Shown: positions 8,423 through 28,507 of the stretch, piece by piece | Layout of the letters: each line of letters opens with the position of its first letter | Numbering within the stretch: the first letter of the stretch is position 1 | Assembly (NCBI GenBank): GCA_017650905.1 | Contig: JAGCDZ010000095.1 | Span: 1-62,773, forward strand | DNA: 62,773 nt | Source of the DNA: Prevotella sp. | Lineage (GTDB): Bacteria > Bacteroidota > Bacteroidia > Bacteroidales > Bacteroidaceae | Direction: 5' to 3' | Position numbers and translations under genes: made by a program | Notes under the pieces: generated by a model | Told to the model about the DNA's origin: nothing | The model's database searches: none | Seen by the model: the letters and a program-made list of their open reading frames with translations, nothing else

Positions 8423-9673
8423 TTAACGCTTTGATGTGACATCCTTTTCATATTGCTGGATGGCAGCAATGTACTCTTCACCAACAGGCACGTTGTTCTT
8501 CAGGTTGAAATAGTCAAACACAGCACCGAACGGCAGACTCTTGGCCTCTTCCATTAAGGCGAGACGCTCGAAGTTCTGACCATTATCCTCATATTCGCGC
8601 AGTTTCTGTTTCGGTTCGAGCAATGCCTGAAGAATACATTTCTGGGTAGCGCGGGTGCCAACAATGTAAGCACCAATACGATTGATGGAGGCATCAAAAT
8701 AGTCAAGACCTACATGGGCACGATCCAAGGCATCGCTACGGACAAGCTCCTTAAAGAGATCCAAAGTCTGGTCGTTCATAATCGTTACATGGTCTGAATC
8801 CCAACGAATAGGACGAGACACATGCAGCATCAGTTCAGGGACGTACATCAGAAGTGTGGAGATGAAGTCGGATACGTTCTCTGTGGGTTCATAGTGACCT
8901 GTGTCGAGAGTAAACATCTGTTTGCGGGTTGCACAGTAGGCTGTGTAAAAATCGTGTGAGCCGACAGTATAGCTCTCCAGTCCGATACCAAATAGTTTGG
9001 CCTCAAAGCAGTTCTTCACACCGTCGAGTTTTTCTTCCATGATTTCATCGAGCGAGGCTGCGAGAATCTCACGGTATTTTTTGCGCTGTACAGGCATGTC
9101 CTTCGAACCGTCATGTACCCAGATATTCATGATGCAGTGGTCGTTCTGTGCCTTTCCCATTGCATCAGCAATGCGACGACAACGTTTGGTATGTTCAATC
9201 CAGAAATCGCGTATACCCTTGTCAGGATTCGATAATGTCAGGTTACCGCTCTTTGGGTGAGAGAAACTGGTGGAGTTGAAGTCAAGTTTCATATTGTTTT
9301 CCTTGGCCCACTGGATCCAACTCTCAAAGTGCTTTACGTCTACTTGGTCACGATCTACGAATTGATTGCCGAAATCACCATAGATTTCATGGAGATTCAA
9401 ACGGTGGTTACCAGCGATAAGGGTCTTCACGAATTCAATATCCTTGCGTACCTCATCTATATTACGTGCACGGCCAGGATAATTACCTGTAGTCTGGATA
9501 CCTCCCGAGAGTGCATCGTTACGCTCAAAACCTACTACGTCGTCTGTTTGCCAGCAATGCAGTGAGATCTGCTGCTTCTGGAGCTGGTCAAGTACTGCAT
9601 CGGTATCTACACCGACGGCTGCATAACGCTCTTTCGCTACAGCATAAGCTTTTTCAATCAGTTCTGTTTTCAT
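8423..9673 (-). CDS. rhaA: L-rhamnose isomerase
   Basis: Interconverts L-rhamnose and L-rhamnulose in the cytoplasm, using divalent metal. At 416 aa it has the usual length. Characteristic segments are ISLHCWQTDDVVGFE near the N-terminus, LDFNSTSFSHP, the metal-binding WVHDGSKD, and FTLDTGHYEPTE with further metal ligands. It is the second gene of the rha operon, 21 bp after rhaB and 12 bp before the permease. Confidence 0.97.
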   Translation of the reverse strand: MKTELIEKAYAVAKERYAAVGVDTDAVLDQLQKQQISLHCWQTDDVVGFERNDALSGGIQTTGNYPGRARNIDEVRKDIEFVKTLIAGNHRLNLHEIYGDFGNQFVDRDQVDVKHFESWIQWAKENNMKLDFNSTSFSHPKSGNLTLSNPDKGIRDFWIEHTKRCRRIADAMGKAQNDHCIMNIWVHDGSKDMPVQRKKYREILAASLDEIMEEKLDGVKNCFEAKLFGIGLESYTVGSHDFYTAYCATRKQMFTLDTGHYEPTENVSDFISTLLMYVPELMLHVSRPIRWDSDHVTIMNDQTLDLFKELVRSDALDRAHVGLDYFDASINRIGAYIVGTRATQKCILQALLEPKQKLREYEDNGQNFERLALMEEAKSLPFGAVFDYFNLKNNVPVGEEYIAAIQQYEKDVTSKR

Positions 9674-9694
9674 AATTCGTTTTTTATGATGTAT

Positions 9695-11179
9695 TTATTT
9701 TTTATTTGTAATTCTCAGATATTTGTCGAAAGCCTGATTCCAGATTTCCTCGTCTACAGGCTCGTATTTCACAAGTTCCAGCGAATTGGCAATAATCTGA
9801 CGCATTTCCCAAATGTTATTCACCAAGTGGGCTGCCTTTGCCTGAAGCATGATGTTACCAATGGCAGTTCCTTCCTGAGGACCAGCCAGTACGGTGGCGC
9901 CTGTGGCGTTAGCCGTAAACTGGTTCAGATATTTGTTGAGGCTTCCGCCACCGATGATATGAAGCACTTCAAGCTTGAAGGGCGCGAACTCTTGCATCCA
10001 CTGGAATACCTGCTTATAACGCAGGGCAAGCGAGTCGAAGATACAACGGCAGATTTCTGCAGGTGTTTCAGGTATGGGCTGATTCGAGTTACGACAATAT
10101 TGCTGGATGGCAGCAATCATGGAGACGGGGTTCGCAAACTGCGCATCATCGGGGTTGATAATGCTGCGAAAGGCTTCTACCTGCATAGCAGAACCTTGCA
10201 GTTCTGGGTGAGAGAGCCTGCGTACTTCCTCAGGCCACTCCTTGCGACAGCGTTCGTAAAGCCACATACCGCAGATGTTTTTCAGGAAACGGGTCGTTCC
10301 TTCGATACCGCCCTCATTAGTGAAGTTGCGTTCATAACTCAAGTCGTTGATGATGGCATCTTTTGTCTCGATACCCATCAGGCTCCATGTACCGCTGGAA
10401 AGATAGGCAAATTTCTCATCCTTTGCAGGTACAGCAGCCACAGCAGAGCCAGTATCATGGCCTGCAACGGCTATTACAGGTACTGGACCTAAACCAGTCA
10501 TCTTTTGTACTTCATCCGTCAGTACGCCAATGACGGTGCCAGGATAAACCATCTTTCCAAATTTTGAACGCGTTAGTCCTAAAGATGCCAACAGGCGTTC
10601 GTCAAGTTGTTTGGTGCGAGGGTCTAATAATTGTGAAGTGGATGCGATTGTATATTCGCACACCTCGTTACCAGTGAGCATCCAACTCAAGGCATCAGGC
10701 ACAAACAAAATCTTCTGCGCATATTTCATCGCAGAGTTGCCCTCACGTTTCATAGCATAGAGTTGGAAGATGGAATTGAAGTTCATCAATTGGATACCCG
10801 TAATATCATAAACCTCCTTTCGCGAGATGATATGCTGTAGGTAGTCGTCCATCGCATCAAATGTAATAGGATCACGATAGGCACGCGGGTTTCTGAGAAT
10901 GGCACCGTCATCGCCAATCATCACAAAATCCACACCCCAAGTATCGATGCCGATGGAGGTGATTTCCAATCCGCGTCGAGCAACCTCTTTCAGACCGCGG
11001 ATAATTTCAAAATACAGGGCATAGATATCCCAATAGAAATGGCCACCTTGTTCAATGAGGTTGTTGGGGAAGCGGGTTACTTCCTCTAAATGGAACTGTC
11101 CTTCATCAATGCAGCCGATGATGGTTCTGCCACTGGTGGCGCCTAAGTCGACAGCAAAGAAATATTGTTTCTGATCCAT
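9695..11179 (-). CDS. rhaB: L-rhamnulokinase
   Basis: Phosphorylates L-rhamnulose at C1 with ATP. The 494 aa belong to the FGGY carbohydrate kinase family. The N-terminal phosphate motif FFAVDLGATSGRTIIG, the substrate-side GIDTWGVDF with its Asp, and AVAGHDTGSAVAAVPA with YLSSGTWSLMG in the second domain are all visible. It is the first gene of the rha operon, preceded by a TACCTTTG box and divergent from nhaD. Confidence 0.96.
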   Translation of the reverse strand: MDQKQYFFAVDLGATSGRTIIGCIDEGQFHLEEVTRFPNNLIEQGGHFYWDIYALYFEIIRGLKEVARRGLEITSIGIDTWGVDFVMIGDDGAILRNPRAYRDPITFDAMDDYLQHIISRKEVYDITGIQLMNFNSIFQLYAMKREGNSAMKYAQKILFVPDALSWMLTGNEVCEYTIASTSQLLDPRTKQLDERLLASLGLTRSKFGKMVYPGTVIGVLTDEVQKMTGLGPVPVIAVAGHDTGSAVAAVPAKDEKFAYLSSGTWSLMGIETKDAIINDLSYERNFTNEGGIEGTTRFLKNICGMWLYERCRKEWPEEVRRLSHPELQGSAMQVEAFRSIINPDDAQFANPVSMIAAIQQYCRNSNQPIPETPAEICRCIFDSLALRYKQVFQWMQEFAPFKLEVLHIIGGGSLNKYLNQFTANATGATVLAGPQEGTAIGNIMLQAKAAHLVNNIWEMRQIIANSLELVKYEPVDEEIWNQAFDKYLRITNKK

Positions 11180-11368: not shown

Positions 11369-12700
11369 ATGTCTATTTTGACTATTTTGATTGTCGCCGT
11401 TTTCTGTATAGGCTATTTGTGTATCGCCCTGGAAAGTCTGACGAAGATTAACAAGGCCGCAATTGCCTTGTTGATGTGTGTGTTGTGCTGGACGTTGCTG
11501 ATGACAGGTCCTGCCATGTATTATCCTTCTGTAGCTGAGGGCAACGTGATTCATCATATTGCTGAGGTCATCGAACATCATTTGGGTGATGCTGCAGGGA
11601 CGCTCTTCTTCTTGATGGGTGCCATGACCATTGTGGAGATAGTTGACTCCAACGGTGGCTTCAATTTTGTGCGCGACACGATGAAAACCCGTTCCAAGCG
11701 CAAACTTATGTGGCGAATGGCTTTTATGACCTTCTTCCTATCGGCCATTTTGGATAACCTTACTACGAGTATTGTGATGATTATGGTGCTTCGTAAACTT
11801 GTTCAAAGTCGAGGCGATCGTTTGATATATGCTGCACTTGTTGTGATTTCCGCCAATTCTGGTGGAGCCTTCTCACCCATTGGTGACGTCACTACTATTA
11901 TGCTGTGGATCAAGGGTGTAATAACGACCCAAGGCGTTATTACAGAGATTTTCATCCCGTCGTTAGTATCGATGTTGATTCCCGCCTTCATCCTACAATG
12001 TCAGTTGAAGGGAAAGTTTGATAAGGAGCAGAATCTGCCTAAGGCTGATGTTAGCCAATTTACGAAAGCTCAGCGTGATATTATCTTCTGGCTCGGTGTT
12101 GGTGGCCTGTGCTTTGTACCTATCTTCAAAACCCTTACTCATTTGCCCCCGTTTATGGGCATCCTGCTTGTATTAGGTATTCTTTGGACTGTCACAGAGA
12201 TATTCCATTATAACACTTCTGAAGATGATACCATGGCCAAGCGTGTGAGCGATCTGCTCTCCAGAATAGATCTGTCTACCATCATGTTCTTCCTTGGTAT
12301 CCTGATGGCTGTGGCTGTGCTACAGGAGATCGGTGTTCTGACTGCACTTGGACAAGGCTTGAATGAAGCCTTTGCAGGCAATTATTACCTGATCAATGGT
12401 ATTATTGGTGTACTGTCAAGTATTGTCGATAATGTGCCCCTTGTGGCTGGTTGTATGGGCATGTACCCTATTGCTGCAGAGGGTGCAATGGCTGTGGATG
12501 GTATCTTCTGGCAACTGCTGGCCTATTGCGCCGGTGTAGGTGGTTCGATGCTGATCATCGGCTCTGCAGCAGGTGTGGTTGTGATGGGACTGGAGAAAAT
12601 CACCTTCGGCTGGTATATGAAGAAAATTACCTGGATAGCCTTTGCGGGTTATCTGGCTGGTATATTGGTCTATTGGGTAGAACGTATGCTGTTCTTCTAA
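11369..12700 (+). CDS. nhaD: NhaD-type Na+/H+ antiporter
   Basis: Inner-membrane exchanger that exports Na+ for H+. The 443 aa are hydrophobic throughout, with about 11-13 membrane segments, and belong to the ion transporter superfamily. Family segments visible include the SAILDNLTTSIVMIMV stretch, SANSGGAFSPIGDVTTIMLW with its conserved polar residues, and GVLSSIVDNVPLVAG, a second inverted-repeat copy of the DN-type motif. It has its own promoter. Its stop overlaps that of the convergent AraC gene by 3 bp. Its place between the rhamnose operon and the signalling operon gives no functional hint. Confidence 0.92.
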   Translation: MSILTILIVAVFCIGYLCIALESLTKINKAAIALLMCVLCWTLLMTGPAMYYPSVAEGNVIHHIAEVIEHHLGDAAGTLFFLMGAMTIVEIVDSNGGFNFVRDTMKTRSKRKLMWRMAFMTFFLSAILDNLTTSIVMIMVLRKLVQSRGDRLIYAALVVISANSGGAFSPIGDVTTIMLWIKGVITTQGVITEIFIPSLVSMLIPAFILQCQLKGKFDKEQNLPKADVSQFTKAQRDIIFWLGVGGLCFVPIFKTLTHLPPFMGILLVLGILWTVTEIFHYNTSEDDTMAKRVSDLLSRIDLSTIMFFLGILMAVAVLQEIGVLTALGQGLNEAFAGNYYLINGIIGVLSSIVDNVPLVAGCMGMYPIAAEGAMAVDGIFWQLLAYCAGVGGSMLIIGSAAGVVVMGLEKITFGWYMKKITWIAFAGYLAGILVYWVERMLFF

Positions 12701-13569
12701 ACTTGACTGCGGGCCTCACTTGGTTTGCAACCCATCTTCGCCTTGAATTTGGCAGAGAAATAGTCTGGCGACTCGAAATTGAGTCGGTAGGCTATTTCTT
12801 TAATAGTGAGATCTGTAGTTGACAAGAGTTCTTTGGCACGTAACAAACGTAAATCCTGCTGATAAGTGGCAGGTGAAAGGCCAGTATATTCTTTAAAAAG
12901 TTTTCTGAAATTGCTGTAACTGACACCTAAATCTTCTGCGATTTTCTGAATGGTGAGGTCGCTTTCCAGTGATTCACGTATACGAAGGCGGGCGCGATTG
13001 ATCATATCCACATGCAGATGATTCTTGTTGAGCTCGATGTTACGCTCTAAAGAATACATCATTCCAATGAGGTGATTCACAATGCCGGCCATTAATTGCT
13101 GGGAGTAGGCATTTTCCTTCGTGGCCTCATCAAGTGCCCGTTGATAAAGCGATTCCAGTACGAATGAATAACCGACATGATAAATGGGTTTTTCTAGTGT
13201 GAGGAATCCTGCCGTCACACGGTCGTCCATGTTCTTTCCTCTGAAACCAATCCAATGACTCTTCCAGCCTGTACGGGGATTGGGGTGATAGGAATGCCAT
13301 TCTCCAGGGAAAAGTAGAAACATATCGCCAGCCTTGATTGGTGTCTCTGGGCAATGAGTACTTTGGAAGATGCCCTCGCCTTCGGGATTGTATAGCAATT
13401 GGTATTCGTCGAGCACTCTTCCTTTCTCGATGTTGAAATAATAACCGTCTGCATGACCCTTTGTGGGGTAGTCTTCTCCAGGGGAGATTTCTTCATAACC
13501 TACAGTGCTGACTGTGAGACCCCAGAGGGCATCGCGTTCGTTTGCTAATAAATATCTACTTGTCTGCAT
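12697..13569 (-). CDS. AraC-family transcriptional regulator, last gene of the kinase operon
   Basis: A 290-aa cytoplasmic DNA-binding regulator. Residues about 1-160 form a cupin-like ligand-binding half (AGDMFLLFPGEWHSY motif). Residues about 190-290 carry two helix-turn-helix motifs, LTIQKIAEDLGVSYSNFRKLFKEY and the family signature LTIKEIAYRLNFESPDYFSAKFK. Only 12 bp separate it from the upstream 935-aa kinase gene and no promoter is visible there, so it is probably co-transcribed with the three kinases. It has no receiver domain. It may regulate the nearby rhamnose genes, since AraC proteins often do, or respond to the kinases' ligand. Both are guesses. Confidence 0.9.
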   Translation of the reverse strand: MQTSRYLLANERDALWGLTVSTVGYEEISPGEDYPTKGHADGYYFNIEKGRVLDEYQLLYNPEGEGIFQSTHCPETPIKAGDMFLLFPGEWHSYHPNPRTGWKSHWIGFRGKNMDDRVTAGFLTLEKPIYHVGYSFVLESLYQRALDEATKENAYSQQLMAGIVNHLIGMMYSLERNIELNKNHLHVDMINRARLRIRESLESDLTIQKIAEDLGVSYSNFRKLFKEYTGLSPATYQQDLRLLRAKELLSTTDLTIKEIAYRLNFESPDYFSAKFKAKMGCKPSEARSQV

Positions 13570-13581
13570 CTTTTTCTTTTT

Positions 13582-16389
13582 TTAATCTTCTAATTTTTCA
13601 CAAGGAATCCACAACCAGAATGTAGAACCATGACCTTCACCTTCTGAGGTTAGTCCTATTTCACCGCCGTAGCGTTCGGCAATAGCTTTGCAGATAGAGA
13701 GCCCAAGACCAGTACCTTGTACAAAGTCGTTGAGTTTGACAAAACGATCGAAGACTGAGGCCTGCTTTTCTTTGGGGATACCAGCGCCTGTATCTTCACA
13801 ATAAAAATAAAGACCATTCCGCGGATTGTTACTGCCAGCAAAGCGCATTTCCTGACGATACCCCACCTTGATATATCCTTTATGGGTATATTTTACAGCA
13901 TTGGTGGTGAAGTTGGTCAATACTTGTTGGATGCGCCCTTTGTCTAATGCTGTACGGAAGGTCGTATAAGGATTGTCTTTGATGAACTCGACTTCAGGTT
14001 CTTGGACGCGTTGAGCTAATGTCTGACAGATATCATCGAATACCTGTGCGAAGTCACATTCCACTGGATTGATTGTAAGGGCCTGTCCCATGCTTGATGC
14101 CTCAAGGATATCATTGATGAGACGTAACAGCATATCGCAGTTATTTCGAATAATGCGGATGAACTCCAAACGCTCTTCCTGAGAATCTATGACTTGGAGT
14201 AAGTCGCTGAAGCCAACAATGGCATTCAAAGGCGTACGAATTTCATGTGTCATATTGGCAAGGAATACACTCTTCAGATGACCAGAATCTTCTGCGCGGA
14301 TGGTTTCTTCTTTTAGTTTCTGCTGGATAGAAACCAGTTCGGTGATGTCACGTGCTACACCGAAATACCCTGTCAGTTTGCCTTTGTTGTCGCGAATGGG
14401 AATGCCGCTGAAGGCGTACCAGCTGGGTTCCTGATTGATGGGTGTTTTGTCAAAACGGCGGATGTTGCTGAATTCCTTGCCTTTCATTATGATCTGCAAC
14501 AGGTTGTCTTCAGCACTGTCACGATCTTTTGAATCCAATCCTTCCAAATAGCCTGCATAATTGTAAGAAATATCTATTTTGCGAAGCGATTTTGACAGAT
14601 GGATCATCTTATCCTCAATGCCAAATCTCCACACGAACATCTTACTCTTTTCCAGTAAATACTGCAACTGGTTCTCATAAGTGTTGGCAGCATCATTGAT
14701 TTTGTGCATTTCTAAATCATGTTTGCGTTGCTCTAGGTAGAGGAGACGTTCGTTGGTGATGTCACGTGCCGTGATGATATAGTAAATGATATTACCGTTT
14801 TCAATGACTGGGAAGACACGGAACTCGATATAGCTATCGATACCGGCCTGCGGAATGACAAGGTGTTGGCATACATGGAAATCTTCATGGCTTTCCGGTG
14901 TAAAATCTTCCTTTAAGAGAGGCATGTCTACCAAACGCATCTGACGGTATATATCATCTCCAATCACATTAATACCACTTATCTTTCGCATCTTATCATT
15001 GGCATCGATGAAGTATTGGTTGGCATCATAGAACGACATGGCAATGAGGCTGGTTTGGAAGATCTTGATGTATCGTTCACCAGTCTCTCTGGTGGCGCGC
15101 TCTTCCATAATGTCATGGGTAACGTCTTTTACGGAGTTGACGATATAGCGGGGGCTGCCATTCTCCAATTCCACGATAGAATTGCCATGCAGGTATCGCC
15201 AGTCTGGCTTCTCAGCTGTTCCTGCATTCCATCGCTTTTTCAGTTCCGCACTCTTCATATCTTCCGTAATCTTCTGCATGGCGTTCTTAAAGTCATCGCG
15301 CTGGTCTGGAAAAATGCGCTCGACGAACTCTTCTGTCGTCATGCCTTTTTCAGGTAGCAAATTGCCATAAACATTATGCGTTTGATGGGTTTTTAGGTCA
15401 TGCTCTATCACGTAGTAGTTACCCATACTTAATGCCTGAGTCATCATGTTGTTGATATCCTTACTCTTATTGATGGCCTTTTGTACACGGATGCGGATCA
15501 GACGACTCAGCAAAAGTGAAATCAGTCCTACGATGATGGCACCTACAATGATAAAGATGGGAATAGGAGATGTGTCATTATGTTCCCGTTCAGGATGGAA
15601 CCATTTATCATAGATCTTCTCCAGTTGTCCTGCCTGTTCTAGACGGGCATATTCATCGTCGATGGCATCAATCAGATCCTTGTCATAGCCTATCAGACGC
15701 AGTTCGCCTGGTGGAATATCGGTAACATCTGTAACAAGACTATCAAGACCGAATTCCTTTAGTTTTCTTTGGATGGGAATCTCTCCCCAAAGAAAATACT
15801 CATATACGCCCCGTTGTATACCTGTCAGAGCGTCCTTAGGTGAGTGGTATTCAATGGTAAAAGGAGGGTTGGGGTTTGTCATCAAGATACGGATAGGCGC
15901 ATAGTCATTGGACTTCATGATAAGCGTATCTTCCTGTCCCAGAAGATTGATTTTTTCCAATGGCATCTCATCAGGACGCCTGACGGCAACGATACGATAG
16001 AAGTGTAATAAGTTGCGCGTCATGACATAGGGGCTTTTCATATAATTGAAAGAGAGGGCGAAGATGAGGTCTGCTTCTCGGCGCTCGAAGGTTTCTGTGG
16101 CCATATACCACTCTTGCATCACATAGCGGTGGGGAATGTGCAGACGGTCAAGGATGATATTGAGTACCTCAATATTATAACCATCAGGTTCGCCTTTGTC
16201 ATTGCTGAACTCGTAAGGTGGAAACTCCCAGTCACTGACAATTACGAGTGGCTGTTCCTCTGTGTATTCATGCATCTGTTGTGCTGCAGCAGTCAATAGG
16301 GCACCATGAAGTGTGAAAAGCATAAAGAGTATGCTCACCCTCTTATGTATGTAATAAATTCTTTTTTTCATTAGTTTTCCACATTTCAT
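13582..16389 (-). CDS. Sensor histidine kinase with periplasmic solute-binding domain (935 aa)
   Basis: Membrane sensor kinase. Signal peptide about residues 7-37, then an SBP_bac_3-type periplasmic ligand-binding domain about 45-268 (IVSDWEFPPYEF and GEPDGYNIEVLNIIL starts, ending KIYDKWFHPE). One transmembrane helix lies at about 275-298, then PAS-type segments about 315-425, 435-550 and 570-690. HisKA follows with His715 in NMTHEIRTPLN, then an ATPase domain with N-box Asn830, EDTGAGIP and GTGLGLSI. All catalytic motifs look intact. Architecture resembles BvgS without receiver or phosphotransfer domains. Its ATG overlaps the stop of the 1595-aa gene (ATGA), so translation is probably coupled. 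An alternative start is Met7. Confidence 0.93.
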   Translation of the reverse strand: MKCGKLMKKRIYYIHKRVSILFMLFTLHGALLTAAAQQMHEYTEEQPLVIVSDWEFPPYEFSNDKGEPDGYNIEVLNIILDRLHIPHRYVMQEWYMATETFERREADLIFALSFNYMKSPYVMTRNLLHFYRIVAVRRPDEMPLEKINLLGQEDTLIMKSNDYAPIRILMTNPNPPFTIEYHSPKDALTGIQRGVYEYFLWGEIPIQRKLKEFGLDSLVTDVTDIPPGELRLIGYDKDLIDAIDDEYARLEQAGQLEKIYDKWFHPEREHNDTSPIPIFIIVGAIIVGLISLLLSRLIRIRVQKAINKSKDINNMMTQALSMGNYYVIEHDLKTHQTHNVYGNLLPEKGMTTEEFVERIFPDQRDDFKNAMQKITEDMKSAELKKRWNAGTAEKPDWRYLHGNSIVELENGSPRYIVNSVKDVTHDIMEERATRETGERYIKIFQTSLIAMSFYDANQYFIDANDKMRKISGINVIGDDIYRQMRLVDMPLLKEDFTPESHEDFHVCQHLVIPQAGIDSYIEFRVFPVIENGNIIYYIITARDITNERLLYLEQRKHDLEMHKINDAANTYENQLQYLLEKSKMFVWRFGIEDKMIHLSKSLRKIDISYNYAGYLEGLDSKDRDSAEDNLLQIIMKGKEFSNIRRFDKTPINQEPSWYAFSGIPIRDNKGKLTGYFGVARDITELVSIQQKLKEETIRAEDSGHLKSVFLANMTHEIRTPLNAIVGFSDLLQVIDSQEERLEFIRIIRNNCDMLLRLINDILEASSMGQALTINPVECDFAQVFDDICQTLAQRVQEPEVEFIKDNPYTTFRTALDKGRIQQVLTNFTTNAVKYTHKGYIKVGYRQEMRFAGSNNPRNGLYFYCEDTGAGIPKEKQASVFDRFVKLNDFVQGTGLGLSICKAIAERYGGEIGLTSEGEGHGSTFWLWIPCEKLED

Positions 16390-19300
16390 GTTTTACTTCT
16401 TTTTCTCACCACATCAGTCATCTTACAGGGGATGGAGAACCATACGGTAGTCCCCTTGTCAGGTTTCGATTTGATATTGATAGTACCGCCCATTTGCTGA
16501 ATCAGTTCATAACAAATGCTGAGACCCAGTCCTGAACCGCTATTGGCTCCTGTCGCAAAACGCTCAAAGATAGTTGGCAACAATGCCTCGTCGATACCTT
16601 CACCTGTATCCTCAATGGCTATAATCAGACGGTCACCGATATAGTCAATTCTTGCATGCACAGACCCTTGGCTCGTATGTTGGCAGGCATTTAGGATGAT
16701 TTGTTCTAGGATAACACTGACGTTCCGGGCATCTATTTCCACCACCAATTGTTCATAGGGATTATCCACGATATACTGTACACCTGGCTTTTGGTTCGTT
16801 TCCAAACTGGTATGGCAGATCAGGTCGAAGGTATGGGCGAAATCCGTGAGTCGTGGTTTGATTTCTATCATTTTGGCATCGAGACGCGATAGAAATAGAA
16901 TATTATTAATGAGTTTCAGCAATTCGCGCGAGTTCTCTTTGATTTCTTCGATGAAAATTCCCTCATCATCGCTAGAGTGATCCATCTGGAAGAGTTCTGC
17001 AAATCCTACTACCGCATTCAATGGTGTACGGATCTCGTAACTCATATTCCGGAGGAAGGCGTTTTTTACCACTTCCACTTCCTGAGCCTTAGCCGTCTCT
17101 TTGATCAGCTCCTTTTGGGTATGCATGATTTCGCTGACATCACGACACATACCGAAATAATATTTGGCCATGCCATCATCGTCGATGATAGGCACCATAT
17201 GCATCTGCAGACATAACTGATAGCCGCCCTTGATACGCAGATTGGTATGGATGGTGGCTTCAATAGGTGTAACTGAGTGATTGTCCATACTTATAAGAAT
17301 ACGGCGTACAGTCTGCAAGTCACTCTCATGGGTCAATGTGAAAGCACGTTGTTGAGTAATCTCATATTCCACATGCCCAATCTCACTGTAAATAGCCAAG
17401 TGATGTGTATCGGGATAATAGTTCATCATTCGAACGCCACCCACCTTTAACACATAATTGATGTTGTTGATGTAGTTGGTAACCTCCTCATTGGCCTTAA
17501 TCTGTTGCTGCAGGTTTTGCTGTCGTTGCATATATGAGTTGGCCACCTCGGTCACATCACGCCCAGAACTGTAGATGCCCATCAAGTGGCCATTCTCGTC
17601 TCTCACGGGAACAATTTGCAGTTCATAGTATACTTTCTCACCATTGATGAAGCTACTCAATACGCGTTTTTCTTCTTTGCCTGCTTTGAAAAGTTGGGTG
17701 AGATAGGTGTACTCCATGTTTTCCACATCGAGGTCTGGCATACCCAATACGTCGCGAATATTGATGTTTCTTGCAAGCAAAGTCTCAAGTGTCATCTTAT
17801 AAGTACGACAGCCTTTCTCGTTAAGGTTTCGTAAATTGCCTTCCTTGTCGTAGTAGGCCATATCCACCAATACAGAACTGAAGATAGCCTGATATCTTAG
17901 CATGTTGTCCTGTGTCACAAGGCGCATCTTGTTTTCTTCGGTGATATCGCTGCGGGTGCCGATGATGACGGATGGTCGTCCGTTTTTATGATAGCGCAGC
18001 ACCGACAGAGCCATGGTATACTCACGGGCTTCATCGTTTTTTTCTTTCTTGGTCCGCAGGTTAATGGTATCATTCTCTTTTTCGCCACGAACAATGTGAT
18101 TGATGACTTCCACCATGTGTTCAAAATCTTCTTTGACGTATTGCTGGGCTACTTCGTGCAGTGAGAGATTGCGTGTAGGGATACCATTCTCATCCAACAG
18201 CGTAAAAGTCTTGCTAGGGATGTTGTAGATCCAAAAGCGGACATTACTGGTTTTAAGTATGAGCGATAGACGGTCGTTCTTCTTTCGTACATCCTTCGTT
18301 AACTTTTGTTCCTTAATTCTGTAAAAGAGATAATAGAACAAGAAAAAGAGTGAAAAGACGGCTATGACGGCTGCCAGTTGCCATACCCATGAAGGAATAC
18401 CGGTCTCGATGTGCTCTGGATAGAACCATTTATTCTGAATAGTTAGCAGTTTTTCTTCCGAAAGAAGTACAGTATAAATACTGTCCAACTGGTTCAATAG
18501 CCGTTGGTTCTTTGAGATAAACTTATATTCGCCGTGAGGGATGTCGATAGGCGACAGTTCCAGATTCTTAATCTGATATTTGTGAATGAGCCATTTCAGC
18601 GACATTGTGTTCCAAACGATTTCGTTGCTGGGGTCAGAACTTGCCTTTTGTATAGCTTCCTTCATGTCCTCGAAACCCTCTGCATTGTCGCCCCATCCTT
18701 TGTCCTGCATAAGGTGGTGACTGAAACTGCCAGTATGTACGATGACTTTGTGATGGCTCAGGTCTTGGAACGACTTGATGGTTGGTGCTTTGTTTTTCTC
18801 ATGAACCACACTATGTGTAAACAGATGGATGACCGACTTTCCATAGCTTCCAATCTCATGGTGGAAACTGGCCTCCATGCCAAAGATCAAGTCCGATCTG
18901 CCTTCTTTGAGGTCGTTGAAAGCATCTACTGAGGGTTTCAGTTTGATGATATAGGGGATATCGAGCCGCTTGAATATCATCTTCAGCAGGTCGATGTTAT
19001 AGCCATCGGGTTCTCCGTTCTCATTCAAGAATGTATATGGCCATAAGTCCCATGCATCCTCGTAGATTAGTGGCCGCTCTACAGAGAATACCGTCGTGCT
19101 GTCGTTCTGTGCCTGTGCTGCTAGTGGCGTGAGATTGAGCACGAATAACAGAATTATGGCCTTGATTGTTGTGGGTATCCACATCCAGAAAGTAGAGCCT
19201 TTTCCTTTGCCTTCCGATTCTACGCCGATCTTGCCACCGCATTTATCGCTGATGGCCTTGCAGATGCTCAGTCCGAGACCCGTCCCTTGCACGTAGTCAT

Positions 19301-21173
19301 TGAGTTTGACAAAACGCTTAAAAATCTTTTCCTGATCTTCTTTGGGAATGCCTGCTCCAGTATCCTCACAGTAGATGCGGATGCCGTCGCCCTGTTTTGC
19401 GTAGCCTACCTTGATATGCCCTTCAGGGGTATATTTCACGGCATTGGTCACAAAGTTGGTGATTACCTGTTGGATGCGGTCCGGGTCCAGATGAGCGGGG
19501 AAAGTTTTATACGGATTGTCCTTGATAAACGTTACTTGTGGGTTCTGAATTCTTTCTGCTACAGTTGTGGAGATGTCGTCAAAGGTCTTTGAGAAGTCGA
19601 TGTCCTCGGATACGAGGGAAATGCCGCTTGCATTCTCTGTCGAGAGAGCTAACAAATCGTTGATCAGTCGCATCAATATGTCGCAGTTGTTCATGATCAC
19701 ACGGATAATTTCCTGTTTTTCTTCCTTTGTCTTCAACATGGGTAGCAAATCCGAAAAGCCAACAATCGAGTTGAGCGGTGTACGAATCTCATGGGTCATG
19801 TTGGCCATAAATGTACTCTTCATCATACCCGATTGCATGGCGCGTTCTGTTTCTTGTTTCAGCAACTCCTGTTTCTTCATAAGTGGTGTCATGTTACGAA
19901 TCACACCATAGCATTCCACAAGTTTGCCATTCTCATCGTAATGGGGAAGACTGTCAAGCATGTTCCATTGTGACTCTTCGCAATCGTGGAAAATGGGTCT
20001 TGTCCAGCAGAGGTGAGCCACTGGCTTGTCGAAATAAAGCTCAGGTTGGTAGAGACCTTTCACAATCATGCTGTCATTGATGAAAAAAGACTCCAGTTCC
20101 TTGAAACTCATTACCTTTTCGGGTGTGGAGAGTTTTTTATAGAAGGCAATCTCGTTCTTGGTGATGTCAGCGCGCCAGAACCGCATATCGCACTCGTTCA
20201 TCAGATACTGCAACTCATTCTCATATTGTTGTATCTCCTCGTTCTGTTGACGGATATATGTTTCGTCCTCCCTGTTCTTGATAAAAAGGTTACGCTCTTG
20301 GGTCAAGTCACGGATGGAGACCGTAATATATAACAATTCCCCTTGTTCGTCATGGATGGGATGAACGCACATCTCTGTATAGCAGTTTACACCTCTCTCT
20401 AAAATCACGCTCTTGGTGCAAAAGAACAGGTCTTCCAGCTTTTTCTTGTTAATCAGTTCGTGGAATAAGGGCATATCGAAGAGCGTATTGTCGAAGTAAT
20501 ATGGGTCATACTCCGACTGGAACTTCAATATCTCGCGTGTTTTCTCATTGACGTTCAGCAGATATCCGTCTTTGTCATAAAATGCTAAGCCCACAATCGG
20601 CTGCTCGTAAATATTGCGATATCTGTCGGTGAGTTCGGTGTTTCTCTGATCCTGCTTTGTCTGCTCTGTCATATCTGTCAGTACGCAGAATATATTTGTG
20701 GGAGTTTTTAATTTGGGGTTGGCATATTCGGCAACACCTAAGTCACGGTAGTAGTGCCAGTTTTTCTGTCCCTTGCCGCGATTGACATCCCATCGGAACA
20801 GACATTGTGACGTATTTTCACCTGACACCAGTTTCTTGCAGAAGTCTATGTAAAAATGACGGTCATCAGGATGGATGTAGTTGAGGCTCTCTTTATAGCC
20901 TAAACCGGTCTCGGGGAGGAAATTGCCATGCATGTTCATTGCATATTGATCCTGGATTGAGAGTCTCAGCACGCAGTTATTGCTCATGTTGAGCGTATGC
21001 TTCATGATGACCGAAAGATCTTTAGCTTGTTCTGATTTACGTCTGATGCGCAGGATACTGATACGGTTGAATCCCCCAATGAGTACAAAGAGAAAGAATA
21101 TCAGTATGATGATGAGTATCGATATGCTATCGATACCGGCGTTATGTTCTATGGCGGATAGGTATAAAATCAT
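16386..21173 (-). CDS. Double histidine kinase fusion (1595 aa) with internal signal-peptide-like segment
   Basis: Two kinases in one frame. First half: a membrane helix about 17-35, PAS-type segments about 55-170, 185-295 and 320-435, HisKA with His461 (NMTHEIRTPLN), and an intact ATPase (Asn577, EDTGAGIP, GTGLGLSI), ending near residue 666. Second half, from about Met664: a signal-peptide-like stretch, an SBP_bac_3-type domain about 695-920, a helix about 928-952, PAS-type segments, a HisKA in which Tyr1379 replaces His (NMSYEIRTPLN), and an ATPase with Asn1495, EDTGEGID and GSGLGLSI. The second half alone is 932 aa, nearly the length of the 935-aa neighbour. Topology is consistent: N-terminus out, kinase 1 in, binding domain out, kinase 2 in. 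It overlaps both flanking genes by 4 bp. Confidence 0.88.
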   Translation of the reverse strand: MILYLSAIEHNAGIDSISILIIILIFFLFVLIGGFNRISILRIRRKSEQAKDLSVIMKHTLNMSNNCVLRLSIQDQYAMNMHGNFLPETGLGYKESLNYIHPDDRHFYIDFCKKLVSGENTSQCLFRWDVNRGKGQKNWHYYRDLGVAEYANPKLKTPTNIFCVLTDMTEQTKQDQRNTELTDRYRNIYEQPIVGLAFYDKDGYLLNVNEKTREILKFQSEYDPYYFDNTLFDMPLFHELINKKKLEDLFFCTKSVILERGVNCYTEMCVHPIHDEQGELLYITVSIRDLTQERNLFIKNREDETYIRQQNEEIQQYENELQYLMNECDMRFWRADITKNEIAFYKKLSTPEKVMSFKELESFFINDSMIVKGLYQPELYFDKPVAHLCWTRPIFHDCEESQWNMLDSLPHYDENGKLVECYGVIRNMTPLMKKQELLKQETERAMQSGMMKSTFMANMTHEIRTPLNSIVGFSDLLPMLKTKEEKQEIIRVIMNNCDILMRLINDLLALSTENASGISLVSEDIDFSKTFDDISTTVAERIQNPQVTFIKDNPYKTFPAHLDPDRIQQVITNFVTNAVKYTPEGHIKVGYAKQGDGIRIYCEDTGAGIPKEDQEKIFKRFVKLNDYVQGTGLGLSICKAISDKCGGKIGVESEGKGKGSTFWMWIPTTIKAIILLFVLNLTPLAAQAQNDSTTVFSVERPLIYEDAWDLWPYTFLNENGEPDGYNIDLLKMIFKRLDIPYIIKLKPSVDAFNDLKEGRSDLIFGMEASFHHEIGSYGKSVIHLFTHSVVHEKNKAPTIKSFQDLSHHKVIVHTGSFSHHLMQDKGWGDNAEGFEDMKEAIQKASSDPSNEIVWNTMSLKWLIHKYQIKNLELSPIDIPHGEYKFISKNQRLLNQLDSIYTVLLSEEKLLTIQNKWFYPEHIETGIPSWVWQLAAVIAVFSLFFLFYYLFYRIKEQKLTKDVRKKNDRLSLILKTSNVRFWIYNIPSKTFTLLDENGIPTRNLSLHEVAQQYVKEDFEHMVEVINHIVRGEKENDTINLRTKKEKNDEAREYTMALSVLRYHKNGRPSVIIGTRSDITEENKMRLVTQDNMLRYQAIFSSVLVDMAYYDKEGNLRNLNEKGCRTYKMTLETLLARNINIRDVLGMPDLDVENMEYTYLTQLFKAGKEEKRVLSSFINGEKVYYELQIVPVRDENGHLMGIYSSGRDVTEVANSYMQRQQNLQQQIKANEEVTNYINNINYVLKVGGVRMMNYYPDTHHLAIYSEIGHVEYEITQQRAFTLTHESDLQTVRRILISMDNHSVTPIEATIHTNLRIKGGYQLCLQMHMVPIIDDDGMAKYYFGMCRDVSEIMHTQKELIKETAKAQEVEVVKNAFLRNMSYEIRTPLNAVVGFAELFQMDHSSDDEGIFIEEIKENSRELLKLINNILFLSRLDAKMIEIKPRLTDFAHTFDLICHTSLETNQKPGVQYIVDNPYEQLVVEIDARNVSVILEQIILNACQHTSQGSVHARIDYIGDRLIIAIEDTGEGIDEALLPTIFERFATGANSGSGLGLSICYELIQQMGGTINIKSKPDKGTTVWFSIPCKMTDVVRKRSKT
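19107..19184 (-). other. Internal signal-peptide-like segment and possible internal start
   Basis: Residues 664-689 of the 1595-aa protein read as a textbook signal peptide. There is a short n-region MWIPTTIK, a hydrophobic core AIILLFVLNLTPLAA, and an AQA-Q cleavage-like end. ATG at 19184-19182 is in frame. It could be an internal translation start for a separate kinase, a signal-peptidase cleavage site splitting a polyprotein, or simply a transmembrane helix of the fusion. Confidence 0.55.
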
Positions 21174-23320
21174 ATCTGTTGACGTTTAATCAGGATTTCT
21201 GTCTTCTTGTCGAAACCAGCCATTTCACAAGGTATACTGATGTAGAAGGAAGTACCCTTACTTAGTTCTGACAGCACTTCGATAGTGCCATTCATTTGTT
21301 CAACGAGTTCTTTTATGATGGGCATATCAAGACCTGTGCCATTTCCATCAACGCTCTCATCGTGTACGAAACGGTCGAATATCTTATTAAGTGCCTCAGC
21401 CGAGAGTCCATGGCCCGTATCCTCGATGGTGATCATCAGTTCACCATGCCTGTATTCGTATTTGGCGCGTATCGAACCTTCTTGGGTATGTTTGGCGGAG
21501 AAAGCACACAGCTTTTCGATAATCATGGCTAGATTTTGCTGGTCGATATTGACTATCAACTGGTTATAGGGATTCTCCACAATGATTTTTACGTTGGGTG
21601 AGATGTTGGTCCAACCCATATAGCACCAACCATCAAAGAGCAGGGCAAAATCGCATAGTTGGTAGTTCTGCTCAATCATTCGGGCGTCAAGTCTGGATAA
21701 GAATAAGATGTCGTTGATAAGTTGCAGCAGGGTACCCGTATTTTTTCTGATTTCCTCGGCAAACACGGGTTCGTCTTCTTCACTGTGTTCACCGTTAAAT
21801 AGACCAGCGAAACCAATCACAGCATTCAGCGGCGTACGCAGTTCATAGCTCATGTTAAGCAAGAATGAGTTCTTAAGTTGTTCTGTTTCCTGAGCCTTAG
21901 CCTGCTCTTCCTGCAGTTTCATCTCCGTATAGGTTATTTCCGTCTCATTACGGCACATGCCGAAATAGTGTGTTACTTCACCTTGCTCATTGGTAATAGG
22001 CATCAAGTTGAAATTCAGGAAGATGTGTCGACCTGTTTTATCGCGTAGTATGGTTTCGAGGGTCATTGAAATCACGCCTTTCCTACGGTTGTCCATACGA
22101 TTGAGCATGCCTCTGGCCTTGAGACGCATGTCGGGCTTAATGAGTGAAAGAGCACGCACCTGTGTCAGACGGTATTGAGCCCGTTTAAGGTCATTCGAAA
22201 CCTCCAAAACATGGGTGTTGGGGTCATAGTGCATCAGATGTACGTCACTCACCTTCAACGAGTAATTGATATTGCGGATATATGACTCAATGGCTTCCGT
22301 TGTTTCTTTCAGTTGTTTGGCGACGTTTTTCTGGCGGTGTTGCGAGAGCACCATTTCACTGATGTTTCGTCTGGCTATTACTACACCTGATAGGTCTTTC
22401 TGGTGGTTGTGAATGGTGGTCACGTACTGTTCATAGTAGACTTTGTCTGTTCCTTCTTCGAAATCGCCTATGTGATTGGTAATGTCCTTTACGTTGGTAA
22501 TCGATGACGAGTACATCTTATCAAGAGTCTTGAAGTCTATGCCAGTTAAGGAGGTCATATCTGCTATTATTAGTTTCGAATCAATCAGTGTCTGCTTGTC
22601 TTTAATGTGTAACGACTCACAGGCCTTGTCGTTGATTTCTGTCATAAAGCCGTTGGCATCGAAATATATCATGTCAATCAGCGAGGTGTTAAACACCGTG
22701 TGATACATGAGTGCCAGGTCTCTTGTTTTTTCCGCCTTCTCCTCGTCTTCAGTGATGTCCTGCTGGGTACCAAGAAGCACTATTGGTTTGTTGCGTTGGT
22801 TATAGCGTAGAATTGAGATGGTGACTTTATAGATGTGCCGTTTGCTGTCGGCCTCCTTGTCGGGAGCGCTTTTCACAATAAGCGAGCCGAAATGAGATTC
22901 ATTATTGCTAATATCCTGGATGATTTTATGTATAGCCTTGAAATCTTCATAGTCATAAAATTGTGAGAAGTCAAAAGGAATGTAAACAGTTTCTTTATGG
23001 CCATGCTCCGAGAATCTGGTGAATGTCTTTTTGTTAACATCATAGGTCCAGGTCTGCATCTTGCTCGATTCGAGAATCATTGCTAGTTGGGCATTCAGCC
23101 GTTCTGCATTGATGTTCATATGCTTTTCGCGGTAGTAGTATACGCGATTATAGAACAACATTATTAACACGGATATTAAAAATGCTGCTACGAGGTGAAC
23201 TACAAGGTGTCGGGCATCAAAAGCTGCACTTATATTTTCTATCTGGGCATGCGCCATGATGGGCAGTATGAGTGCTGCACATAGGTATACAAGCCTTTGT
23301 TGATTATTATATATGCGCAT
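21170..23320 (-). CDS. Degenerate sensor histidine kinase (716 aa), first gene of the signalling operon
   Basis: N-terminal signal-like segment (residues about 8-26), a short periplasmic stretch, a membrane helix about 40-58, and PAS-type segments about 75-190, 200-325 and 350-465. A HisKA-like helix has Tyr492 in place of the phosphoacceptor His (NMSYELRTPLN). In the ATPase domain the N-box Asn-Ala is replaced by Phe607-Ser608. The G1 box EDTGHGLS remains, but the G2 box is altered to GTGLDMPI. It is therefore probably a pseudokinase acting as a scaffold or ligand sensor. It is closest to the second kinase half of the 1595-aa protein (shared NMSYE-RTPLNAV-GFA and YFGMCR). It overlaps the next gene by 4 bp. 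Confidence 0.88.
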   Translation of the reverse strand: MRIYNNQQRLVYLCAALILPIMAHAQIENISAAFDARHLVVHLVAAFLISVLIMLFYNRVYYYREKHMNINAERLNAQLAMILESSKMQTWTYDVNKKTFTRFSEHGHKETVYIPFDFSQFYDYEDFKAIHKIIQDISNNESHFGSLIVKSAPDKEADSKRHIYKVTISILRYNQRNKPIVLLGTQQDITEDEEKAEKTRDLALMYHTVFNTSLIDMIYFDANGFMTEINDKACESLHIKDKQTLIDSKLIIADMTSLTGIDFKTLDKMYSSSITNVKDITNHIGDFEEGTDKVYYEQYVTTIHNHQKDLSGVVIARRNISEMVLSQHRQKNVAKQLKETTEAIESYIRNINYSLKVSDVHLMHYDPNTHVLEVSNDLKRAQYRLTQVRALSLIKPDMRLKARGMLNRMDNRRKGVISMTLETILRDKTGRHIFLNFNLMPITNEQGEVTHYFGMCRNETEITYTEMKLQEEQAKAQETEQLKNSFLLNMSYELRTPLNAVIGFAGLFNGEHSEEDEPVFAEEIRKNTGTLLQLINDILFLSRLDARMIEQNYQLCDFALLFDGWCYMGWTNISPNVKIIVENPYNQLIVNIDQQNLAMIIEKLCAFSAKHTQEGSIRAKYEYRHGELMITIEDTGHGLSAEALNKIFDRFVHDESVDGNGTGLDMPIIKELVEQMNGTIEVLSELSKGTSFYISIPCEMAGFDKKTEILIKRQQI

Positions 23321-26222: not shown

Positions 26223-27215
26223 ATGATACAAAATGGATTATTGCGCATCGGTATTATCGGTGCTGGATGGATAGCCGAAAAGGCAGCCATCACCTTGAAC
26301 GGCCTTGCTAATTGCGAGGCTTATGCCATTGCTTCCCGCTCAATCGAGAAAGCGGAGGCTTTTGCAGAAAAATGGGAAATGAAGAAGGCTTACGGCTCTT
26401 ATTCAGAGTTGATAGCTGATTCTGACGTGGATTTGGTTTATGTGGCTACGCCCCACTCTCATCACTATGATGTGACGCGTGAGGCATTACTGTCAGATAA
26501 GCCATGTTTGGTGGAGAAGGCTTTCATGGCTAATTATCGTCAGGCAAAAGAAATTGTCGACCTATCTCGCGAGCGCGGCGTTTTTTTGGCAGAAGCCATT
26601 TGGACGCGCTATCAGCCGGCAGTCGGTATCGTGCGCGACTTGATCAGTAATGGACGCATCGGCACGCCCCGGCTCGTGACGGCCACTTTAGGCTATTCTA
26701 TGGGTGATAAGCCTCGCATTATGCGTCCAGATCTCTGTGGTGGAGCTTTGCTCGACCTAGGCGTCTATGCTCTCAACTTTGTGCGTATGTTTTTCCCAGC
26801 TGACATTGTCAGTATCGAGAGTCAGTGTGTGAAGAGCCAGACGGGTATGGATTTAACAAATGCCATGACTCTGGTGCTTAGCGATGGACTGTTGTGCAAT
26901 CTCCAGTCAAGTGCTGCTTGCGTGGGCGACAATATAGGTGTAATTGCGGGTACCGACGGCAATTTGATTATCGACAATATCAATAATCCCCAGAAGATTA
27001 CAGTAAACACTCACGACCGTGAGTTTGTGGAAGATATCCTTGTCCCTCGGCAGATTACGGGCTATGAATACCAGTTCATAGCTTGTCGCCAGGCACTAAT
27101 TGACGGCCTTTTGGAGCCACGTGAGATGCCGCTCGATGAGACCTTGTATATCATGGAACTCATGGATGGCTTCCGTCAGAAATGGGGTGTGAGATACCCG
27201 ATGGATGAGGATTGA
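26223..27215 (+). CDS. Gfo/Idh/MocA family oxidoreductase
   Basis: NAD(P)-dependent sugar or cyclitol dehydrogenase family, substrate unknown. The 330 aa have an N-terminal Rossmann fold with GIIGAGWIAEK, then VYVATPHSHH. VEKAFMAN replaces the usual EKP motif; the catalytic Lys is kept but the Pro is lost. GGALLDLGVYALN in the C-terminal domain is typical. The relatives it most resembles are dihydrodiol dehydrogenase-like members. It stands at the head of a rightward run with two sensors, GH9 and a barrel protein; its stop is 20 bp before the first sensor's ATG. Confidence 0.9.
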   Translation: MIQNGLLRIGIIGAGWIAEKAAITLNGLANCEAYAIASRSIEKAEAFAEKWEMKKAYGSYSELIADSDVDLVYVATPHSHHYDVTREALLSDKPCLVEKAFMANYRQAKEIVDLSRERGVFLAEAIWTRYQPAVGIVRDLISNGRIGTPRLVTATLGYSMGDKPRIMRPDLCGGALLDLGVYALNFVRMFFPADIVSIESQCVKSQTGMDLTNAMTLVLSDGLLCNLQSSAACVGDNIGVIAGTDGNLIIDNINNPQKITVNTHDREFVEDILVPRQITGYEYQFIACRQALIDGLLEPREMPLDETLYIMELMDGFRQKWGVRYPMDED

Positions 27216-27235
27216 TATTTGACAAGTGGCCGAAC

Positions 27236-28507
27236 ATGAACGTTTTCCGATATCTCCGCAGTTCCTTCTCCGCACGACTCAGCCTGTGGGTGACAGGGTT
27301 TGTAACTGCCATTTTCGTGGTGGCGTTGACCCTGCTCTTCCGTTTCTCACTGGCAGTGGTCAAGGACGAGTCGCTTGAGCAAAACATGCAGGTGCTCGAG
27401 CATGCTGCGTTGCGGGTGGATCGGATACTTCATCGGACGGAGATGACGGCAAAGACGGCGAGTTGGATGATACGCCAGCATCTCGCTCAGACTACGATCG
27501 TACATGATCTGTGTCAGGAGGTGATGCAGTCGAATCCTTGGATTGACAGTTGCTATGTGATGCCAGTCAGTCAGTTGAAGGTTGAGACGGCTCGTTGGGA
27601 GGAACCTCTGTTGGATTCTGTTTCTGACAGTGTGGCACTGAGGCCGATGGTGATGACCTATTATTTGCCTATGTATGACGATCAGGGTGAGTCGTGTCTG
27701 ACACTCGCCATCGATGTGCAGATTGACTGGAGGGAGACTCATTCTGAGTTGACGACTCAGATTCCCTATGCACATTGTTTCCTGCAGGGTTTAGGCGGTC
27801 TCTACCGTCTGGAGACCAGCGGCTACCGGTCGCAACAAATTGATGGTACGAATACTTATCATTACTACCGTCCTTTCAGTAACACTGATTGGGGTATAGC
27901 GATGCTCTGTCCTGAGCGTGATATCATGGCCGACTACAACCGTTTGCAGACCATTGGAATCATTGTGATGGTGGTTGTTCTACTGTTGTTGCTCCTCATC
28001 TGCAGGCTTGTGATCGACCATAATCTTAAACCACTTGATCTCCTGTCATCAAAGGTGCGCCGTATCTCGCAGAACTATTTTGACGACCCTATCCCTGCTA
28101 ATAACCGTCAGGATGAAATCGGTGAACTGCAGCGAGGTTTTTCTTCCATGCAGCGGGCTTTGGTGAGTCATCTCACTGAGATGCACCAAAAGACGACCGA
28201 GTTGCAGGAGCGTAATCAGGCATTGCAGGTGGCTTATGAGCGGGGACGCGAGGATGAGCGCACCAAAACGGTATTCCTGAGTAGCATCTCCGAGCAGATT
28301 ATGGTGCCTGTGAACGAAATCTATGCTGCTACTGACCGTTTGAGTGTGCGTTATCAGAATTTCACGAAAGAAGAAATGAGTCAGTTGCAGCAGCAGATAA
28401 GTGCTCATAGTGACACTATCACAACCCTGATTGACCAGACATTGATTACCTCGCGGGGTGCGACGTCCTACAGTGATAATAATGATTCTAAAACGACTAC
28501 CCAATGA
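27236..28507 (+). CDS. Kinase-less membrane sensor, paralogue of the next gene
   Basis: 423 aa. Helix about 14-38, an extracytoplasmic Cache-like domain about 39-238 (ending TDWGIAMLCPERD), helix about 240-258, a HAMP linker about 260-312 (RQDEIGELQRGF), a coiled coil about 312-345, then a HisKA remnant. There, ISEQIMVPVN stands where the neighbour has MMHQIRTPLN, so Glu353 replaces His and Arg-Thr is lost. The protein ends about 60 residues later with no ATPase domain. It is therefore not a kinase by itself and may pair with the full-length paralogue. ATG 27236 was preferred to the upstream TTG at 27212. Its stop overlaps the next ATG by 4 bp (ATGA). Confidence 0.85.
   Translation: MNVFRYLRSSFSARLSLWVTGFVTAIFVVALTLLFRFSLAVVKDESLEQNMQVLEHAALRVDRILHRTEMTAKTASWMIRQHLAQTTIVHDLCQEVMQSNPWIDSCYVMPVSQLKVETARWEEPLLDSVSDSVALRPMVMTYYLPMYDDQGESCLTLAIDVQIDWRETHSELTTQIPYAHCFLQGLGGLYRLETSGYRSQQIDGTNTYHYYRPFSNTDWGIAMLCPERDIMADYNRLQTIGIIVMVVVLLLLLLICRLVIDHNLKPLDLLSSKVRRISQNYFDDPIPANNRQDEIGELQRGFSSMQRALVSHLTEMHQKTTELQERNQALQVAYERGREDERTKTVFLSSISEQIMVPVNEIYAATDRLSVRYQNFTKEEMSQLQQQISAHSDTITTLIDQTLITSRGATSYSDNNDSKTTTQ

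Follow-up and report, generated by a model that had tools for sequence, protein, structure and literature searches.

A Prevotella gene that joins an apparently active sensor kinase to a histidine-lacking solute-binding sensor within a family of alternating kinases

One gene of a Prevotella contig (16386..21173, minus strand; 1595 aa) encodes, to judge from its sequence, an apparently active kinase (K1) followed in the same frame by a solute-binding sensor that is shaped like a kinase and lacks the phospho-accepting histidine (K2). The fusion is genuine, old and repeated, and it lies within an unusual family of clusters in which two types of kinase, A and B, alternate. The window, that is, the whole stretch of 62,773 nucleotides analysed, is contig C94 in an assembly of 110 contigs, and all coordinates without a locus or contig prefix are positions in it.

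The fused gene is an uninterrupted, ATG-started frame without an internal stop and overlaps each of its neighbours by 4 bases. Along the minus strand come K0, the fused K1-K2, K3 and then an AraC-type regulator. K0 (21170..23320, 716 aa) is a type A kinase with Tyr492 in place of His, Phe for the N-box Asn and Asp for the third G2-box Gly. K3 (13582..16389, minus strand, 935 aa) is a type B kinase with its own solute-binding domain, with His715 present and with the ATP site intact. The AraC-type gene (12697..13569) lies just downstream of K3 on the same strand. We considered it as a fixed partner and rejected the idea: of 79 named loci, 24 have such a gene next to K3, within 52 bases of its end, and many of the rest offer space for one but show no match, so it is at best an optional partner. 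None of the 19 receiver-domain matches in the assembly, which is 71.55% complete, lies on the window contig. Two small single-domain receivers are encoded elsewhere in the assembly, at C81:14950-15276 and C41:2733-3050. Beside the kinase cluster, genes for L-rhamnose isomerase and rhamnulokinase occupy 8423-11179, with an NhaD-type antiporter between; a rhamnulokinase is found near the cluster in 19 of the 79 named loci. Of 49 named four-kinase loci, 46 have rsgA, the gene for a ribosome GTPase, close to the cluster. Elsewhere in the window, 27212-30429 holds another kinase gene (28504-30429), preceded by a 431-aa frame that weakly matches sensor or phosphatase families.

Pfam finds two HisKA and two HATPase_c stretches, one SBP_bac_3 domain (residues 710-917) and PAS folds on the 1595-aa protein. 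A preliminary description of this DNA had read the gene as two complete sensor kinases; the two HisKA/HATPase_c modules in one frame bear that out, and the completeness of the second does not hold, as it has Tyr1379 where the phospho-accepting His would be. The K1 half (residues 1-668; 19170..21173, minus strand) was delimited by Pfam, hydropathy and core typing and comprises an N-terminal membrane stretch (about residues 17-35) and a type B kinase core. Its phospho-acceptor, His461 (CAT, 19791..19793, minus strand), is kept in 61/61 K1-type cores, and all scored residues of the N, G1, F and G2 boxes of the ATP site are present in the window. An AlphaFold2 model of residues 431-960 (26 alignment rows, mean pLDDT 77.3, pTM 0.43) places the last strand of the K1 catalytic domain at residues 660-667 (model strand 230-237). 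Unfused K1 relatives end in STFWxWIPC and a tail, with 4-16 residues after IP in 47 unfused K1s.

The K2 half starts with a solute-binding domain of the Venus-flytrap type (SBP_bac_3, residues 690-930; 18384..19106, minus strand), predicted to be periplasmic from Pfam, structure matching and the model. Its Pfam match scores 39.5 bits against a cut-off of 26.4 and lies before the modelled second membrane helix (residues 931-956; 18306..18383, minus strand), which hydropathy also indicates. The similarity of the domain to amino-acid binding proteins and to a sensor protein (3h7m, E 4e-11) at most suggests a small ligand. The cytoplasmic part (residues 957-1595; 16389..18305, minus strand) consists of PAS and a type A kinase core, as seen in Pfam, core typing and structure matching. 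Its H-box reads NMSYEIRTP, with Tyr1379 (TAC, 17037..17039, minus strand). The Asn, Asp, Gly and Phe positions of the ATP site are kept, and Gln replaces the N-box Lys, a substitution seen in 65 of 85 K2-type cores. The core matches the structure of DivL (4q20) at E 5.9e-21, with four ordinary kinases scoring better, and RetS structures at E about 7e-18.

The cluster was compared across 80 loci, the window and 79 named ones, drawn from the best 80 of 142 candidates; the loci were found with a K1/K2 joint query, so close kin are over-represented. The named relatives are Prevotella and Prevotellaceae, by their titles mostly metagenome assemblies of ruminant origin. With every kinase core sorted, types A and B alternate without exception in 80/80 loci. 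The pattern K0-K1-K2-K3 occurs 47 times and K2-K3 alone 17 times; apart from two loci with six kinases, the others are truncated or show less frequent patterns. Core matches below 190 bits were dropped as unrelated kinases, among them the first frames of L098 and L119, the 610-aa frame of L160 and the window gene at 28504. Type B cores (61 K1, 79 K3) have the His, the N-box Asn and Lys, the G1 Asp and Gly, both F-box Phe and all three G2 Gly in 140/140 cases. Type A cores (K0, K2) lack the His in 121/142, which speaks against the second half of the fused gene being a complete kinase. The His place is Tyr in 60, His in 16, Phe in 6 and Glu, Gly and Asn once each among the 85 K2-type cores, and Tyr in 52 and His in 5 of the 57 K0-type cores; "with SBP" meant more than 600 residues before the core, by which the K0 of L110 is counted with K2 and the broken K2 of L166 with K0. 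The N-box Asn is kept in 77/85 K2-type versus 10/57 K0-type cores. On a tree of 119 cores, A and B each occupy one side of a branch (SH-aLRT 100), and on the K2 tree the His place underwent at least 9 changes when every state is counted (3 between His and Tyr). As 16 of the 85 K2-type cores still have the His, its loss in K2 is common but not required.

The six-kinase clusters, L158 and L141, run A-B-A-B-A-B, which points to duplication by pairs, and from the sequences we read the family as a tandem duplication of a pair of one intact and one altered kinase. A second A-B pair in the same assembly (C48:9775-15093, locus L052) has Gln in its type A member (NMVQEIRNP) and His in its type B member. 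The family is scarce outside the genus: it was detected in 12 of 301 genomes of the GTDB-like family, in 3 of 30 genera (E 1e-30). We found no account of it in the open literature searched, including that on Prevotella histidine kinase pseudokinases.

The K1-K2 boundary falls within one frame in 7 of 58 named-locus cases, as against 0 of 137 A-to-B boundaries. The seven fused genes are those of the window, L088, L089, L090 and L092, grouped as a single clade by both trees (SH-aLRT 100; 100/100), plus those of L164 and L122 outside it, the latter with a longer linker at the joint. They represent three apparent events (event-level Fisher p = 0.022 versus A-to-B joints). A sample of 398 genomes from the genus gave 172 with a match to the joint region (E 1e-40 or better); among the matches listed, 14 span the joint, 3 without a stop and 11 with one. 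A further search of the genus, covering nearly the same genomes, yielded no new fused gene. The common state is that of separate, nearly touching K1 and K2 genes, and aligning homologues, as the preliminary description had proposed, answers its question of fusion or separate genes in this way.

Both the metagenome-type assemblies and the presence of two genes in most relatives would suit an assembly or sequencing error that joins two genes. We consider such an error very improbable, since L088, L089, L090 and L092 have the same in-frame joint with no stop in any of the four, and they differ from the window at 11-27% of residues in the body regions. These four are rumen-type Prevotella from differently named projects, 73-89% identical to the window in the main regions; the gene of L088 lacks about the first 218 residues, where its contig ends. 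Checking the junction in related genomes thus upholds it, and the refuting case named in advance, of relatives all keeping separate genes with the window in error, runs against these four assemblies and the fused genes of L164 and L122. In ten pairwise comparisons of the five assemblies, the five body regions have pN 0.04-0.19 and pS 0.40-0.80, and the low pN relative to pS indicates purifying selection on both halves of the fused gene. In L089, at 12809-15504, K3 matches in two frames that change near 14752, a frameshift or assembly error.

The L164 and L122 fusions apparently arose independently of the window clade, as far as trees and alignments can tell. The K1 and K2 trees both place L164 with the unfused L130 and L131. 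L164 and the window clade both read WMW[IV]PT at the joint; a single origin by recombination was rejected, as the identity of their DNA over the joint shows no rise (0.74-0.79, versus 0.72-0.74 with two unfused kin). A single old fusion followed by many splits is a less probable alternative, and the tree label test could not by itself show separate origins. The K1 of L122 sits on a long branch (0.86), which makes its placement unsure. Long frames in L136 and its twin L183 (1474 aa) were set aside, their upstream 540 residues being read, on the letters alone, as a false extension.

The joint (residues 669-689; 19107..19169, minus strand) is by pattern and hydropathy a signal-peptide-like stretch ending AQA|Q, with the cut at 688/689 if used. 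In the window clade the last strand of K1 passes directly into it, STFWMWIPTTIKAIILLFVLNLTPLAAQA|Q. It had been placed at residues 664-689; a hydrophobic stretch ending in A688|Q689 does lie between K1 and the solute-binding domain, and its extent is closer to 669-688, since residues 660-667 are the K1 strand. In unfused relatives, K2 starts within a few bases of the K1 end, with a median overlap of 4 bases. The suggestion of two genes that lost the stop between them holds in that relatives keep them apart, and falls short in that K1's tail of 4-16 residues and the K2 signal-peptide start are missing too. In Bacteroidetes, a Gln tends to follow the signal peptidase cut (the Q-rule, PMC5837995); according to that report, inner-membrane proteins remained to be tested. 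By pattern, the joint carries what Sec export and signal peptidase I would use under this rule: a positive residue, a hydrophobic core, small-x-Ala and Gln. The motif [ASVTGCLI]x[AGS]|Q is present at the joint in 7/7 fused genes and in 34/66 scorable unfused K2s (12 K2 rows were without the anchor motif, and six K1 rows misfit the end pattern).

Whether the chain is cut there or remains whole, with the joint as a permanent membrane helix in a four-module, membrane-spanning double sensor, turns on a few features of this stretch. The topology works in all fused genes for the uncut chain, as the preliminary description had held, and in outline that claim fits a chain re-entering the membrane at the joint. 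Lys or Arg precedes the hydrophobic stretch in 7/7 fused genes, which suits an anchor as well. The 19-residue hydropathy of the seven fused joints is 1.21-2.19; for five signal peptides it is 1.35-1.93, and for three window membrane helices 2.25-3.18. The joints come close to some of the window signal peptides, but that of L092, at 2.19, is nearly level with the weakest membrane helix scored (2.25). L089 is without a standard cut site: the usual place reads AQT|K, and only a shifted LTA|Q fits. Against a permanent helix stand the short uninterrupted hydrophobic run (8-12 residues in the seven joints versus 18-20 in the three window helices), although the unfused signal peptide of L095 has a run of 17 and the split from membrane helices is not clean, and the A|Q site, kept in 7/7 in a stretch that otherwise diverges fast (identity 0.27-0.73, pN 0.14-0.51 in the window clade). 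AlphaFold2 confidence is about 33-37 at the joint and about 92 at the K2 membrane helix; this may merely reflect that only six of 26 rows cross the joint. On these features the joint resembles a signal peptide more than an anchor. We lean slightly towards cleavage by signal peptidase I at AQA|Q, and regard the uncut chain as quite possible though somewhat less probable. The gap between the last strand of K1 and the hydrophobic stretch is just 3-5 residues long, which may hinder K1 if the tether stays. Cut or uncut, the end of K1 is held at the membrane next to K2.

A third way of making K2 would be from the same message: ribosomes would also start at the internal ATG of Met664 (19182..19184, minus strand). 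The ATG is where it had been described, and the second half from Met664 does measure 932 aa (1595-663). ATG664 is present in 6/6 fused genes of the window clade and L164, and Met stands there in only 4/47 scorable unfused K1s; the same six have Thr after Pro667, found in 0/47 others. A further ATG-GTG pair just before the hydrophobic stretch is kept in L088 and L090. Two of the four unfused K1s with Met (L154 and L157), however, are close kin of L164, so the Met looks inherited there, and inheritance explains part of the pattern. L122 has Val at this place, and the 40 codons counted from there contain no ATG, GTG or TTG. In the model, Met664 sits within K1's last catalytic-domain strand. Bacteroidetes are described as being without Shine-Dalgarno sites, their starts depending on upstream adenines (PMC6847099), and on a matrix built from 643 putative starts the upstream context of Met664 in the six fused genes falls in the 0-5th percentile of those starts and in the 5-44th of internal ATGs; other rules may apply where a start is coupled to a stop upstream of it. 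The internal start is thus the least supported of the three readings put forward at the outset, and we think it improbable. The fused gene very probably gives a single translation product.

The joined gene could also be a neutral accident, a tolerated fusion in which K1 and K2 act as they do when separate. Fusion is rare at K1-K2 joints, and separate genes that already overlap by 4 bases at the median make joining an easy accident. Yet the fusion is old, with synonymous sites near saturation, it arose about three times, and it clusters with K1s without a membrane helix; we hold a neutral origin to be rather unlikely. The N-terminal membrane stretch is truly absent in four K1-type proteins (L130, L131, L164 and one of L122's). 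Two of these four are fused to K2 (L164, L122), against one fusion event among K1s with the stretch (p = 0.012 on events, from four genes of which L130, L131 and L164 are close kin). The test used a hydropathy threshold of 2.0, under which seven K1s scored low; L088 and L096, where contigs end, and the odd L144 were left out of the p value. This enrichment is a hint that K1 must sit at the membrane beside K2 and that fusion can be a means of holding it there. L130 and L131 have versions of both K0 and K1 without any N-terminal membrane stretch.

Taken together, the explanation that we favour, with modest confidence, is a single polypeptide with active K1 head to tail with the kinase-shaped, solute-binding sensor K2, the joint as export signal, K2 steering a type B partner, and cleavage slightly favoured. 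The N-terminal helix of K1 would place its kinase in the cytoplasm. The joint would act as a second export signal that sends the solute-binding domain into the periplasm; through the helix that follows, the chain would return to the cytoplasm for the kinase-like part of K2. A small molecule would be read by the solute-binding domain. K2 cannot accept phosphate on His and would set the activity of an adjacent type B partner, K1 and probably K3. By analogy with known pairs, control of a type B kinase by K2 seems probable. The join would fix a 1:1 ratio and keep K1 at the membrane beside K2; a cut at AQA|Q would give two proteins that are each held at the membrane, the signal stretch remaining on K1 as a tail. 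Put at its fullest, and only tentatively, the gene would encode a sensor-kinase polyprotein cut at an inner signal into a tailed active kinase and a His-less ligand sensor in 1:1 ratio, within a wider Prevotella family of mixed pairs.

Most known examples of kinases that have lost the phospho-acceptor are isolated ones, DivL among them. In this family intact and altered kinases alternate throughout, gene by gene, so a "one of each" rule can be compared over a large number of species. That K1 and K2 have to be close to each other is supported by the natural fusions, which also offer a single-chain construct for the question of how a kinase that is altered steers one that is intact. Should the joint be cleaved, the product would be a rare bacterial signalling polyprotein. 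In the FbcH cytochrome b/c1 precursor, signal peptidase cleaves a polyprotein at an internal signal. The precursor shares with K1-K2 an internal signal peptide between two membrane-linked proteins; its products are respiratory proteins, whereas those here are signalling proteins and their cleavage is only predicted.

DivL of Caulobacter, a pseudokinase with Tyr for His, regulates the kinase CckA (PMC4211667). Like K2, it has PAS and a kinase core, Tyr at the phospho-acceptor place and an active kinase beside which it works (PMC4211667). The window K2 has this Tyr, as do most K2-type cores. K2 differs from DivL in its periplasmic solute-binding domain, in most ATP-site residues being kept and in its fusion to an active kinase; the known role of DivL is binding a phosphorylated receiver, and the likeness of K2 to it is one of sequence. 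RetS of Pseudomonas, a kinase with a degenerate ATP site, down-regulates its partner GacS (PMC5992135). There too one kinase controls another, and RetS structures match the K2 core, but RetS carries receiver domains and is unfused to GacS, whereas K2 has no receiver and its partner is in the same chain. The DivL-CckA and RetS-GacS precedents are the ground for proposing that K2 controls an intact partner. Venus-flytrap kinases of the BvgS type (PMC4352136) share with K2 a periplasmic domain of the solute-binding type, a membrane helix, PAS and a kinase core. They carry a tandem pair of such domains (PMC4352136), whereas K2 has one, has lost its His, and is partnered and fused with another kinase.
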